From: Micromonosporaceae bacterium
Lineage (GTDB): Bacteria > Actinomycetota > Actinomycetes > Mycobacteriales > Micromonosporaceae
Direction of reading: 5' to 3'
Assembly: GCA_009377645.1 (NCBI GenBank)
Contig: WHTQ01000005.1
Coordinates: 1 to 64,000 of the forward strand
Length of the DNA: 64,000 nt
Part shown: piece by piece, positions 11,164 through 19,383 of the stretch
Numbering within the stretch: position 1 is the stretch's first letter
Layout of the letters: every line of letters starts with the position of its first letter
Made by a program: the position numbers and the translations under genes
The notes under the pieces: generated by a model
Databases searched by the model: none
Told to the model about the DNA's origin: nothing
Seen by the model: the letters and a program-made list of their open reading frames with translations, nothing else

Positions 11164-14100
11164 GTGGAAGGTGAGACAGTGACAGATCCGACAGTTCCCG
11201 CGGACTCCCCGACCGACTCCCCCGCCGACGCGGCGCCGGAGGGGGGCGGCATCGAGGGGGCAACGCCGGAAGACCTGGCGCTGGGGCGGGGCCGCGTCGA
11301 GCCGGTCGGGATCGAGGTCGAGATGCAGCACTCGTACCTCGACTACGCGATGAGCGTGATCGTCAGCCGGGCGCTGCCAGACGTGCGGGACGGCCTCAAA
11401 CCGGTGCACCGTAAGATCCTCTGGGGGATGTTCGACGGCGGCTACCTGCCCGACCGCGGCTACGTGAAGTGCGCCCGGGTGGTCGGTGACGTGATGAGCA
11501 ACTACCACCCGCACGGTGACCTTGCGATCTACGACGCGCTGGTCCGGATGGGACAGCCGTGGTCGTTGCGCTACCCGCTGATCGACGGCAACGGCAACTT
11601 CGGCTCGCCCGGAAATGATCGACAAGCGGCGATGCGCTACTGCCTGTCCGGGGACGCCCTGGTGCGCACCGCTGAAGGCACGCTACGGATCGACGAAATC
11701 GTCCCCGATGCGCGACCGAACTCGGACAACGCCATCGACCTCAAGGTCCACGATCGCAACGGCGACCTGGTACGGGCCAGCAAGCTGTTCCACTCCGGTG
11801 AGCACCCGACGTTGCGGGTGCGTACCCGGGAAGGGTACGAACTGACCGGTACGCACAACCATCCGGTGTTGTGTCTGGTCAACGCCGGAGGCGTGCCAAC
11901 CCTGCGGTGGAAGCTGTTGGACGAAATCAAGTCCGGCGACCGGGTTGTCCTGCAACGGACAGTTCACGACGAGTTCGGGCATCCGATGCTGGAGCACGTC
12001 GAGTCAGCCGTTCTCGCGGGCGCGTTCGTGAGCGAGGGGTTCGTATCGGAGGACCGCGCCGGGTTCAACAACATCGACCAGGACTACTTCGGTCGGGTCC
12101 TCGCCGCGTTCGATCTGGCGGTCGGTGGGCGACGGTACGTCTACCAACGAACGATCGCCTCGGGTAGCGTGCTGTTCGAGTTGGACGTTCAGAACCTCTC
12201 CGCGCTCCGCCGGAGTGTGCTTGGTGAGCTGATCGGAAGCCGGAGTGCGGACAAGTTCGTGCCGACGTTCGTGTGCCGGGGCACACCAGCGGTCAAACGG
12301 GCCTTCCTGCAGTCGCTGTTCGAAGGTGACGGGTCGTCTTCCCTGCTGCCGCGGAACACTATCCAGATCTCGTACTCGACGCGGAGTGACCGGCTCGCCA
12401 GAGAGGTTCAACAGCTGCTGCTGGAGTTCGGCGTGGTTTCCCGGCAGTGTCACTACCAGAACGGTGAGATCAAGGTAGTCGTCACGAACCGGCGGGATGC
12501 CCGGATCTTCGCCCAGTCGATCGGCTTCCTGGGACGCAAGCAGATCAAGCTCGAAGCCGACTTAGCGACCATCCCGTACCGGAGCGTGGCGCTGAGCAAG
12601 GATCACGTACCGCATCTCGCTGAGTTCATCCGGCGGGACGGTGCGGACCAGGTCCGGGATCGCAACTGGCTGCGGCTTCACAACGTCGACCGGATCGAGC
12701 GCTGGGAGTCGCGCCGCCTCGAGATCGCGGCCCATATCACCAATCCCGAGGTGCTGGAGGTGGCGGAACCGCTGGTCGACGGCCGCTTCTACTACGCCGA
12801 GGTGGCATCGGTCAGGGACGCTGGTGTGCAGCCCGTCTACAGCCTCCGGGTCGACTCCGACGACCACGCCTTCGTCACCAACGGGTTCGTCAGCCACAAC
12901 ACGGAGTGCCGGCTGGGCGCGCTGACCATGGGGATGCTGCAGGACATCCGCGAGGGCACGGTCGACTTCGTTCCGAACTACGACGGCCGGTCGGAGGAAC
13001 CGGTGGTGCTGCCGGCCCGGTTCCCGAACCTGCTCGTGAACGGCTCGGAAGGGATCGCGGTCGGGATGGCCACCAAGATCCCGCCGCACAACCTGGGGGA
13101 GATCGCGGCCGCGGTGCAGTGGTGCCTGGCCAACCCGGAGGTCGACGAGGCGACCACGCTCGAGGAGCTGCTGAAGCTGGTCAAGGGACCGGACTTCCCG
13201 ACCTACGGGCTGATCGTTGGCACCACCGCCATCCAGGACGCGTACCGCACCGGCCGCGGCGCGATCCGGATGCGGGCGGTGGTCGACGTGGAGGAGGACC
13301 CGAAGGGCCGCTCGCTGCTGGTCGTGTCCCAGCTCCCGTACCAGGTGAACCCGGACAACCTCGCCCAGCGCACGGCCGAGCTGGTCAAGGAGGGCAAGCT
13401 GGCCGGGATCGCCGACATCCGGGACGAGTCCTCCGGCCGGACCGGGATGCGGATCGTGGTCGTGCTGAAGCGGGACGCCATCCCGAAGGTCGTGCTGAAC
13501 AACCTCTACAAGCACACCCAGCTGCAGGAGACGTTCGGCGCGAACATGCTGGCGCTGGTCGACGGCGTGCCCCGGACTCTGAACCTGGCCCAGTTCATTC
13601 GGCACTACGTGGCGCACCAGATCGAGGTGATCCAGCGTCGCACCGCGTACCGGCTGCGCAAGGCCGAGGAGCGCGCGCACATCCTGCGTGGCTACGTCAA
13701 GGCGCTGGACATGCTGGACGAGGTGATCGCGCTGATCCGGCGCTCGCCCACCGCGGAGGAGGCGCGTACCGGCCTGATCCAGCTGCTGGACGTGGACGAG
13801 ATCCAGGCCACCGCGATCCTGGACCTGCAGCTGCGGCGGCTGGCGGCGCTGGAGCGCCAGAAGATCATCGACGAGCTGGCCGAGATCGAGCTGAAGATCG
13901 CCGACCTGAAGGACATCCTGGCCAAGCCGGAGCGGCAGCGGCAGATCGTGTCGGAGGAGCTGGCCGGGCTGGTCGAGAAGTTCGCCGACGAGCGGCGCAC
14001 GAAGATCGTCCCGTTCGATGGCGAGGTCTCGATGGAGGACCTGATCGCCCGGGAGGACGTGGTCGTGACGATCACCCGGACCGGGTACGCGAAGCGCACC

Positions 14101-14997
14101 CGGTCCGACCTCTACCGGTCCCAGCGGCGCGGCGGGAAGGGGGTGTCCGGAGCGACGCTGCGCCAGGACGACATCGTCAGCCATTTCTTCGTCAGCTCCA
14201 CCCACGACTGGATCCTGTTCTTCACCAACAAGGGGCGGGTCTACCGGGCGAAGGCGTACGAGCTGCCGGAGGCGAGCCGGAGCGCCCGCGGCCAGCACGT
14301 GGCGAACCTGATGGCGTTCCAGCCGGACGAGCAGATCGCCCAGGTGATCAAGATATCGAACTACCAGGTGGCGCCGTACCTGGTGCTCGCCACCCGCAGC
14401 GGGCTGGTGAAGAAGACCGCGCTGGCCGAGTTCGACTCCAGCCGCACCGGCGGAATCATCGCGATCAACCTGCGGGACGGCGACGAGCTGGTCGGCGCGC
14501 AGCTGATCGCACCGGAGGACGACCTGCTGCTGGTGAGCAAGAACGCGCAGGCGATCCGGTTCCCGGCCGAGGACGAGACGCTCCGCCCGATGGGGCGGGC
14601 GACCTCCGGCGTGATCGGCATGCGGTTCGGCGAGGATGATGAGCTGCTGGCCATGGAGGTGGTCCGGGAGGGCATGGATGTGCTGGTGGCGACCGGTGGC
14701 GGGTACGCCAAGCGGACGCCGATCGAGGTCTACCCGGTGCAGGGGCGAGGCGGTAAGGGCGTGCTCACGGCTAAGATCACGGAACGCCGCGGCGAGCTGG
14801 TCGGGGCGGTCGTGATCAACCAGGCGGACGAGCTGTTCGCGATCACCAGCAACGGCGGAGTTATGCGGACTCCGGTGAAGCCGGTGCGAAGAACCCGCGA
14901 TCGGAACACAATGGGGGTCAAGCTGATGAACCTCCCCGAGGGGGTGACCCTCGTGGCCATCACTCGAAACGCGGACGAACCGGACGAACAGGACTAA
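11164..14997 (+). CDS. gyrA: DNA gyrase subunit A, intein-containing precursor
   Basis: 1277 aa. Exteins: [31 protein letters not shown]...[14 protein letters not shown] / [29 protein letters not shown]; interrupted by a 420-aa intein at the Y/T catalytic site. Confidence 0.98.
11641..12900 (+). mobile_element. GyrA intein with DOD/LAGLIDADG homing endonuclease domain
   Basis: Begins [20 protein letters not shown] (block A), [10 protein letters not shown] (block B), LAGAFVSEG and SLFEGDGSS (DOD motifs), ends [37 protein letters not shown] before Thr; exactly 1260 nt in frame. Confidence 0.97.
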
Positions 14998-16300: not shown

Positions 16301-16374
16301 GGGGCTATAGCTCAGTCGGTTAGAGCGCAGAGCTGATAACTCTGAGGTCGCTGGTTCGATTCCAGCTAGCCCCA
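16301..16374 (+). tRNA. tRNA-Ile (GAT)
   Basis: GGGGCTATAGCTCAGTCGGTTAGAGCGCAGAGCTGATAACTCTGAGGTCGCTGGTTCGATTCCAGCTAGCCCCA cloverleaf. Confidence 0.97.
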
Positions 16375-16401
16375 CTTCCCACGAACCGGGAGGTGCCCTC
16401 C

Positions 16402-16552: not shown

Positions 16553-16626
16553 GGGGCCGTAGCTCAATCTGGCAGAGCACCGCCTTTGCAAGGCGGGGGT
16601 TAGGGGTTCAAGTCCCCTCGGCTCCA
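16553..16626 (+). tRNA. tRNA-Ala (TGC)
   Basis: GGGGCCGTAGCTCAATCTGGCAGAGCACCGCCTTTGCAAGGCGGGGGTTAGGGGTTCAAGTCCCCTCGGCTCCA followed by CCA. Confidence 0.96.
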
Positions 16627-16777
16627 CCAGCCAAAACGGCTGTGGATCTTAGCGGCTGGTACAGCCATTGGTACAGCCAAGCGTCATCCCGACCCCTTCC
16701 TGAGCGCCCTGTCGATCACGAAGGCAGCCTCCCACGCCCGCGCGGGCAGGACGTGCCCGTACGTGTCGGCGGTCAGC
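16584..16777. repeat. Direct repeat copy A (tRNA-Ala 3' part + arm-like repeats + integrase 3' end)
   Basis: Near-identical to 18619-18799 except for T-stem changes and a 13-bp length difference. Confidence 0.9.
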
Positions 16778-17715
16778 CGGATGGTGGAGTGCCCGAGTAG
16801 CTCCATCACCGTCCGCAGCTCGACGCCATCGTCAAGCAGGAACGTCGCGAAGGCATGTCGAAGATCATGGAGCCGGAGCCAGGAGAGGCCGGCACGGCTC
16901 CGCAACTGCTCGAACGGGCGGTTAACGTTGTGCGGCTCCATCGGAGTCCCGATCACGCTGGCGAACGCGAGGCCCAGGTCATGCCACGCTTCACCGGCCC
17001 GCAACCGCTCCTCGGCCTGGCGCGCCCGCTGTTGCTTGAGCGCGCGTACCGCGAGCTTCGAGAGCGGCAGTGGCCGGGCCGAGCGGTGCGTCTTCGGCGG
17101 AACCGTGGTCAGGCGGCCGTTGACGCGCTGGAGGGTCTGCCGGACGTGGAGCACCTTGCCGTCCAGGTCGATGTCCGCCCAGCGCAATCCGAGCACTTCA
17201 CCGCGGCGTAGACCGGTCGCGAGGACGACCACGTACAGCGGCTCCAGACGGTCACCGGCAATTGCCGATAGCAGAGCCTTCGCCTCTTCATGCGTCAGAG
17301 CCCGCCGCTCGCTGCGCGAAAGACCCGGTGGCTTCGCCGCCTTAGCGACATTGCGTGGTACCAGGTCCATTCGCTCCGCATCGGACAGCGCCACTCGAAG
17401 CACGCCGTGAATCTTGACTATCGTGGCGGGTGCCGCCTTCGCCTTGAGGCTGGTCAGGAAGCGCTGCACCTGCCGCGCCGTCAGCTTGTCGAGCTTGATG
17501 CCGCCCAACGCCGGGATCAAATGTGTGTCGATCACTTCGCGGTATCGGCGAAGGGTCGAGGCTCGCGTCTCGTCGTGCGCCTTGACGTCCTGCAACCACT
17601 CCGTGAGCCAGGCCGCCAGGGTGCGAGGCGGGGCGGTGAGGTCGACACCGAGTCGCAACTGCCGGCGCAGCTCATCGCGCTTACGGATCACCTCCGCTTC
17701 GGTCGTGGCGTACAC
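16684..17715 (-). CDS. Site-specific tyrosine integrase (N-terminus appears degraded or mis-startable)
   Basis: 343 aa; TGLRRGEVLGLRWADIDL (Arg box), LRLHDLRHAFATFLLDDG (HxxR), MELLGHSTIRLTADTYGHVLPA (catalytic Tyr); in-frame homology-like sequence GLWAAAVDLGWVSGKRRRKY upstream of the start. Confidence 0.93.
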   Translation of the reverse strand: MYATTEAEVIRKRDELRRQLRLGVDLTAPPRTLAAWLTEWLQDVKAHDETRASTLRRYREVIDTHLIPALGGIKLDKLTARQVQRFLTSLKAKAAPATIVKIHGVLRVALSDAERMDLVPRNVAKAAKPPGLSRSERRALTHEEAKALLSAIAGDRLEPLYVVVLATGLRRGEVLGLRWADIDLDGKVLHVRQTLQRVNGRLTTVPPKTHRSARPLPLSKLAVRALKQQRARQAEERLRAGEAWHDLGLAFASVIGTPMEPHNVNRPFEQLRSRAGLSWLRLHDLRHAFATFLLDDGVELRTVMELLGHSTIRLTADTYGHVLPARAWEAAFVIDRALRKGSG

Positions 17716-18012
17716 GTACTTCCGGCGCCGCTTCCCGCTTACCCACCCGAGATCGACGGCCGCCGCCCAGAGTCCCGGACGCTGGCCGGGGCGCGGGCGG
17801 CTTCCCGCACCACCATCCGATGGCCCGCATAGACACGATCATGGGGCCGTCGCTGGGCCGTCTCGGGCCGTGGCCGGCCGTCAGATGCCACCCAGCGATG
17901 ACCAGCGTTGACCGTCGATGCCAGATGAAACCGCAGGTCACAGATGTCAGTGGCACGCCGGCAAGGGGTGCGACGGACGAGTCGGCCTGTACGCCGGATC
18001 TGATCTCCGCAT

Positions 18013-18207
18013 TCAGGTGACCGAGCTTGGGGGCGGAACGTCGAGCTGTTTGCAGATGGCGCGTACGGTTCCAGGCCGTATCTCCTGGTGGCGCGGGACC
18101 GAGGACGGCTGTCCGCCTGGCCCTCGCCACTTGGCGTGGTTGCCACCCTCGCCGATGAAGCGGCAGCCATGATCGAGCAGGTGGCGCTCAAGATCGCGGC
18201 GCTTCAC
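18013..18207 (-). CDS. hicA: HicA family toxin
   Basis: MKRRDLERHLLDHGCRFIGEGGNHAKWRGPGGQPSSVPRHQEIRPGTVRAICKQLDVPPP, HicA G-N-H motif; 4-nt overlap with hicB. Confidence 0.9.
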   Translation of the reverse strand: MKRRDLERHLLDHGCRFIGEGGNHAKWRGPGGQPSSVPRHQEIRPGTVRAICKQLDVPPPSSVT

Positions 18208-18434
18208 GCGGCGTAGGTGAGGGTCAAGGAGTCGCTGTCGGCCTGATCGGGCTGGCCGCCGGTGAACGCCTCGTCGGGGGTGAGCACGACCTGGAGGGCA
18301 TCCAGCACGTTCTCCCGCGCCTCCTGGCGGGTACGGCCCTCGCTGATGGCAGCGGGGATCTCGGCGATCTGGGCGGTTACCCAGCCGTCGCCGGCATCCG
18401 TGTACCGGATGGTCAGGCGCACCTGTCCCGTCAT
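18204..18434 (-). CDS. hicB: HicB family antitoxin
   Basis: MTGQVRLTIRYTDAGDGWVTAQIAEIPAAISEGRTRQEARENVLDALQVVL, partial RNase H-like HicB fold sequence. Confidence 0.88.
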   Translation of the reverse strand: MTGQVRLTIRYTDAGDGWVTAQIAEIPAAISEGRTRQEARENVLDALQVVLTPDEAFTGGQPDQADSDSLTLTYAA

Positions 18435-18618
18435 GGCATCCAGGCTACCGCGCGGGTGCGACGGCGTCGCCGAGCCGCATCCAGGCGGTCTCCGCGTGGC
18501 CGGCGGTACAGCCATTGGTACAGCCAAGCCGGCCGGCAGCCGCCCCGTGGCCAGGCACCCGCCGACAGGACGTGTAGGTCAGCGGCCATGGCCGACACCC
18601 ACCGACAGCCGGCGCGAT

Positions 18619-18799
18619 CTTTGCAAGGCGGGGGTTGCGGGTTCAAGTCCCGCCGGCTCCACCAGCCAAAACGGCTGTGGATCTTGGCGGCTGGTACAGC
18701 CATTGGTACAGCCAAGCGTCATCCCGACCCCTTCCTGTCGCGAAGGCAGCCTCCCGCGCCCGCGCGGGCAGGACGTGCCCGTACGTGTCGGCGGTCAGC
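18619..18799. repeat. Direct repeat copy B (att relic + integrase 3' fragment)
   Basis: CTTTGCAAGGCGGGGGTTGCGGGTTCAAGTCCCGCCGGCTCCACCAGCCAAAACGGCTGTGGATCTTGGCGGCTGGTACAGCCATTGGTACAGCCAAGCG... matches 16584-16777. Confidence 0.9.
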
Positions 18800-19383
18800 T
18801 CATCCAGCTCGGCTACCAGCTCGCCGTACCGCTCACCGGCGAGGTCGATGTCGATGCGCCGTTCCAGCGCCGCGAGCCGGCGTTCGAGCAGCCGTGGCGA
18901 CTGGGTCTCCAGCCACGCCGACTGTATTCCGTCGAACGGCGTGCCGCGCCACAGCGAAGCCGCCTCGCACAGCAGCTTCCGCTCGGCGACCGGGTCGGCC
19001 GCCACCGCTGCCGCCTCCAGCAACCGCACGAACCGCACCGCGTCGACCTGGTCGGGCTCGACGGGCAGGCGGTAGCCGGATGGCTCGGTCGCGACCGTCG
19101 CCGCGCCCAACGCGGCACGCAGCCTCGTCACGCACACTTGTACGCCCCGCCGGGTGTCCGCGGGCGGCTCCTCTCCCCATAGCGGGGTGGCGAGCTGGTC
19201 GACCGAGACCACCCGACCCGCCGACATGGCGAGTGCCGCCAGCAGGATCCGCAGCCGGCCGCTGGTCAACGCGGCCGGCCGGGCGCCCATCCGCACCTCG
19301 AACGGCCCGAGCAGGTGCACCTCAAGCTCTGGTGACCCGGCAGCCGCGGCTCCGACCGCCATCGTGCCCCCCGTCGATAACAC
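18643..19383 (-). pseudogene. Truncated SARP (AfsR/BTAD-type) regulator fused in frame to an integrase C-terminal fragment
   Basis: N-part LEVHLLGPFEVRMGARPAALTSGRLRILLAALAMSAGRVVSVDQLATPLWGEEPPADTRRGVQVCVTRLRAALG...(Trans_reg_C/BTAD); C-part LTADTYGHVLPARAREAAF identical in type to the integrase tail. Confidence 0.88.

Follow-up and report, generated by a model that had tools for sequence, protein, structure and literature searches.

A tRNA-Ala gene whose 3' half recurs ca. 2 kb downstream, with genes for an integrase and for HicB and HicA between the copies, raises the question of whether so short a segment is a mobile element in its own right or the residue of a larger one. The segment lies in a window of 64,000 nucleotides from a Micromonosporaceae bacterium (assembly GCA_009377645.1, contig WHTQ01000005.1, positions 1 to 64,000), to which all coordinates refer. 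Both answers had been entertained in the original prediction, which was made from the sequence alone: a selfish unit of integrase and toxin-antitoxin, or what is left of an element of the actinomycete integrative and conjugative element (AICE) type. The present analysis argues for the latter. The segment is very probably the remnant of an AICE, defective and part of a tandem accretion, which would make it a product of decay rather than a miniature mobile element of a new kind; intact AICEs of 9.8–13.6 kb share its integrase clade, its tRNA-Ala, and the anatomy of its ends.

The direct repeat and the integrase gene

ARAGORN placed a tRNA-Ile gene at 16301–16375 of the window, followed by the target tRNA-Ala(TGC) at 16553–16629 (plus strand). 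The 3' half of the latter, from 16584, would constitute the left attachment (attL) core; as originally described, a second copy of it is located at 18619, offset by 2035 bp. A 29-nt pattern of this core, sought with up to 3 mismatches, occurred at two places only in the window, where 0 were expected (100 shuffles). The repeat had been described as the 3' half of the tRNA, but it is not confined to the tRNA. Alignment of both copies gave a full repeat of 194 and 181 bp (16584–16777 and 18619–18799), ca. 4 times the length of the tRNA part, that continues across GGTACAGCC arm-type sites and on into the 3'-terminal part of an integrase gene. Outside the tRNA part, the copies differ by 3 substitutions and one 13-bp gap. 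The left sites (GGTACAGCCATTGGTACAGCC, repeat family D3) are located at 16658–16682, and the same position is kept in related AICEs; the layout points to a role as arm-type integrase sites.

The tyrosine integrase gene (16684–17784, minus strand) was identified by Pfam (PF00589, E = 1.7e-27; PF14659, E = 4.3e-12) and by alignment to intact relatives, and it is truncated at its 5' end. Homology to the intact proteins starts at codon 17 of 383 and ends at base 17784. The first in-frame ATG, GTG, or TTG is internal, with none preceding the arm-binding region; the longest open reading frame with a standard start runs from an internal GTG and covers 16684–17715. The catalytic part is intact in sequence, and the truncated protein would presumably be unable to bind the arm sites normally. 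The gene adjoins one att site in the 3' end of a tRNA gene, as the definition of an AICE asks, though with its 5' end truncated. Together with hicB and hicA, it is encoded on the minus strand; no xis, replication initiator gene (RepSA or similar), DUF2637-type gene, or FtsK/SpoIIIE-type transfer gene was found between the repeats. The spacer just past the junction (17785–18012) has no significant homology to intact elements.

A protein search of the window's genome returned no relative of RepSA, while the positive controls (genomes G280 and G002) were matched, and the next-closest integrase in this genome is 29% identical. Because of these two results, no obvious helper element appears to be present there. 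Searches of phages and plasmids with the integrase gave distant matches only (<60% identity), viral contigs gave one weak integrase match and no HicA, and PADLOC gave no match for the integrase, hicA, or hicB.

Intact elements at the same tRNA-Ala

Relatives were sought in 355 genomes of the family, using the integrase as the query, and 20 regions around related integrases were read. Integrases 73–75% identical to that of the window were found in ca. 10 genomes of one sister genus, and more distant ones were found besides. In all 20 regions, the integrase gene, whole or broken, follows a tRNA-Ala(TGC) that is located behind tRNA-Ile. By its own terms, the original prediction was to be refuted by larger intact elements in related genomes from which the segment plainly derives by deletion, and such elements exist: five of the regions hold AICE genes bounded by a second copy of the tRNA 3' end (L083, 11.1 kb; L084, 12.5 kb; L088, 10.3 kb; L090, 13.6 kb; L097, 9.8 kb). 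All five carry xis, rep, and tra. The gene set of L083 comprises the integrase (383 aa), Xis (HTH_17), RepSA (PF20199, E = 3.8e-105), FtsK/SpoIIIE, GntR-UTRA, and NUDIX proteins, together with a membrane protein that had no Pfam match and that we take to be DUF2637-like. L084 shares these core genes, including RepSA (PF20199, E = 2.3e-99) and FtsK/SpoIIIE. The bounded elements are typical AICEs of the pSAM2 kind.

The ends of the window segment were compared to those of the intact elements. In L083, L084, L088, and L090, a right arm site aligns 118 bases ahead of the right core. The right arm-type sites of the window (18505–18529) have the same spacing and layout, and the segment therefore keeps both authentic ends. 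Both ends are homologous to those of intact AICEs at the same site, relative to which the segment has an internal deletion with its break at 17784.

The right boundary

The right copy of the tRNA 3' half (18619–18663, plus strand) is followed by arm sites and an integrase 3' end (18664–18799, minus strand), which the original prediction had missed. The right boundary evidently doubles as the left end of another element that is nearly identical to the first; the tRNA copy would serve as attR of the first element and attL of the second. The integrase tail was found independently at 18730–18807 by the protein search of the genome. It is joined to a truncated gene for a SARP/BTAD regulator (18800–19383, minus strand), which was recognized by NCBIfam and by positions 1–90 of the 146 of the Pfam BTAD profile. 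The open reading frame that holds the tail is the front part of this regulator, and the second copy has evidently been deleted into the regulator gene. The truncated regulator and the second integrase tail share one reading frame across 18643–19383.

The T-stem of the right tRNA copy is altered. The paired change from AGGGG/CCCCT to GCGGG/CCCGC comprises two compensatory pair changes, and pairing is kept. Because the changes are paired, they suggest that this copy once belonged to a working tRNA of different origin. The allele was found in none of the other genomes of the 355 in the family, and no donor of it was found there.

The hicB-hicA pair

The original prediction had named the integrase and an overlapping hicB-hicA pair as the only convincing genes between the repeats. 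Pfam bore out the integrase and HicA, and the overlap was observed; the account needed amendment for the truncation of the integrase, and HicB has weak support from profiles. The toxin gene hicA (18013–18207, minus strand, 64 aa) is securely identified (PF07927, E = 1.4e-13; HicA of PDB 9svk, E = 0.0036), and the region of the conserved histidine is present, with GGNHAKW aligning to GSHYQW of 9svk. The putative antitoxin gene hicB (18204–18434, minus strand, 76 aa) lies upstream of hicA with a 4-nt overlap. Its product has a UPF0150-like match at E = 0.13 and sub-threshold matches to HicB structures in the PDB; the overlap and the usual antitoxin-toxin order fit its identity as HicB. The pair resembles known HicBA type II modules in its small PF07927 toxin, short putative antitoxin, overlapping genes, and gene order, but differs from them in that profiles recognize the antitoxin weakly and few close relatives occur in the family.

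Five relatives of HicA were found at E ≤ 1e-6 in the family genomes, and no integrase of the window type occurred in the 3 kb read around each of those in other genomes. For HicB (E ≤ 1e-5), the sole other match was in G185; this relative, at a contig end, is 79% identical in its N-terminal part and likewise speaks for the identity of HicB. The best plasmid relatives of HicA are ca. 50% identical. Immediately ahead of hicB, at 18435–18448, stand the bases GTAGCCTGGATGCC; they also precede the start codon of the G185 homologue (L104), and this stretch is possibly a conserved promoter or operator.

A search of other genomes for an integrase with hicBA at tRNA-Ala had been suggested as a check. 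The pairing had no other case in the 355 family genomes, and hicBA is therefore best read as ordinary AICE cargo of the right end that would have been left behind. It is possibly still a working toxin-antitoxin pair.

Probable decay of an AICE and alternative explanations

The features of the locus would be accounted for by two deletions, given here in the order that we infer. In the first copy of the element, a large internal deletion would have extended from integrase codon 16 outward, removing the start codon, xis, rep, the DUF2637-type gene, and tra, up to the cargo of the right end. The left end, the integrase (lacking its start and some of its arm-binding domain), HicB-HicA, and the authentic right arm would have survived. 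A further deletion would have taken away almost the whole of the second copy, joining the tail of its integrase to the gene for the SARP-type regulator. Most probably, the remnant is immobile.

Decay of this kind is already known, and the window remnant is a further case. AICEs and defective AICEs accreted at one tRNA, and their decay, have been documented in Streptomyces (PMC9513070), and AICE remnants and tandem AICEs have been described (PMC3218068). Like the defective elements in such arrays, the window remnant has lost mobility genes, sits in tandem at one tRNA, and keeps flanking direct repeats; it differs in being more reduced (2.0 kb) and in having no tra (PMC9513070, PMC3218068). Defective AICEs (DAICEs) are defined as carrying traB (PMC9513070), and because tra is missing, the window element was labeled a remnant and not a DAICE. 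For AICEs of the pSAM2/RepSA kind (pSAM2, pMR2, pACPL), the likeness is found in the intact relatives at the window's tRNA, which carry xis, a RepSA-type rep, and an FtsK-type tra; the window copy, of which ends and cargo are all that is left, differs in having lost xis, rep, and tra together with the start of the integrase. For pACPL, a 43-nt att segment within the 3' end of a tRNA has been described, with arm-type repeats on either side of the core (PMC3364876).

Three points weigh against decay from a tandem pair of AICEs. No intact AICE with this hicBA was found, and the pair may have arrived by another route. The T-stem changes of the right tRNA copy would not be expected had one element simply inserted twice. 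The genome is a draft of 217 contigs. Simple assembly collapse was rejected as unlikely, since the repeats differ.

The defective element could still be open to mobilization, in trans or in cis, by a related AICE that enters at this tRNA. Such rescue is compatible with decay from an AICE, and the two accounts differ only on whether mobility can be restored, which we regard as conceivable yet doubtful. Both cores and both pairs of arm sites are conserved, and accretion with helper-driven mobilization of defective AICEs has been discussed for Streptomyces (PMC9513070), but no obvious helper is present in this genome, given the distance of the next integrase (29% identity) and the lack of a RepSA relative.

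The near identity of the copies beyond the tRNA (3 substitutions, one gap) could also have arisen by local duplication of the left end, with no second integrated element. We consider this quite unlikely: the repeat starts in the att core of the tRNA, as integration predicts; the right arm is correctly placed just ahead of it; and L099 (see below) has the same arrangement.

A self-mobile minimal element of integrase and HicBA would fit the presence of both ends with arm sites, the intact catalytic part, and hicBA as the only other recognizable genes, but it was rejected as highly improbable because the integrase has no first 16 codons or start, xis is absent, the unit does not recur in the 355 family genomes, and there are full AICEs whose ends are the same.

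Remnants and near-empty sites

Decay from an AICE has further examples at this tRNA-Ala. In at least four other genomes, small elements were found whose integrase is broken or reduced, some with truncation at the 5' end: L086 (2.8 kb), L092 (3.4 kb), L098/L099 (2.2 kb, one genome), and L101 (3.3 kb), and neither rep nor tra was detected in them with the L083 and L084 queries. As in the window, a second integrase remnant lies behind the right core of L099. L046 and L047 have integrase tails alone behind the tRNA. In G001 (L044), of the same genus as the window, the interval from the tRNA to an EamA-type gene is short and has no repeat, and it is close to an empty site. Because the integrase was the query, remnants without one are under-counted. 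A candidate minimal mobile element of integrase and toxin-antitoxin is thus removed; in its place, the sites at this tRNA gene form a decay series that comprises a near-empty site, the full AICE, and remnants. The series could be used to ask which cargo outlasts the mobility genes.

Another same-genus genome, G002, has an integrase-free island of 3.8 kb at this tRNA-Ala (L045, 5216–9089), which holds a PIN-domain gene and, toward the right end, a different hicBA pair. Its HicB is 43% identical to that of the window over 51 aa. Toxin-antitoxin cargo at the right end might slow the full loss of decaying AICEs and so enrich tRNA-Ala remnants for addiction modules; this island is suggestive in that respect, as a single case, and we hold the idea to be unlikely.

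Genes upstream of the tRNAs

Two genes lie 5' of tRNA-Ile and tRNA-Ala in the window, which we take to be gyrA and a DUF3566-like gene. The order gyrA/DUF3566/tRNA-Ile ahead of tRNA-Ala is common to the relatives read. The gyrA open reading frame (11164–14997, 1277 aa) contains a long central stretch (ca. residues 161–579) that is missing in L044 and L045 and that looks like an intein.
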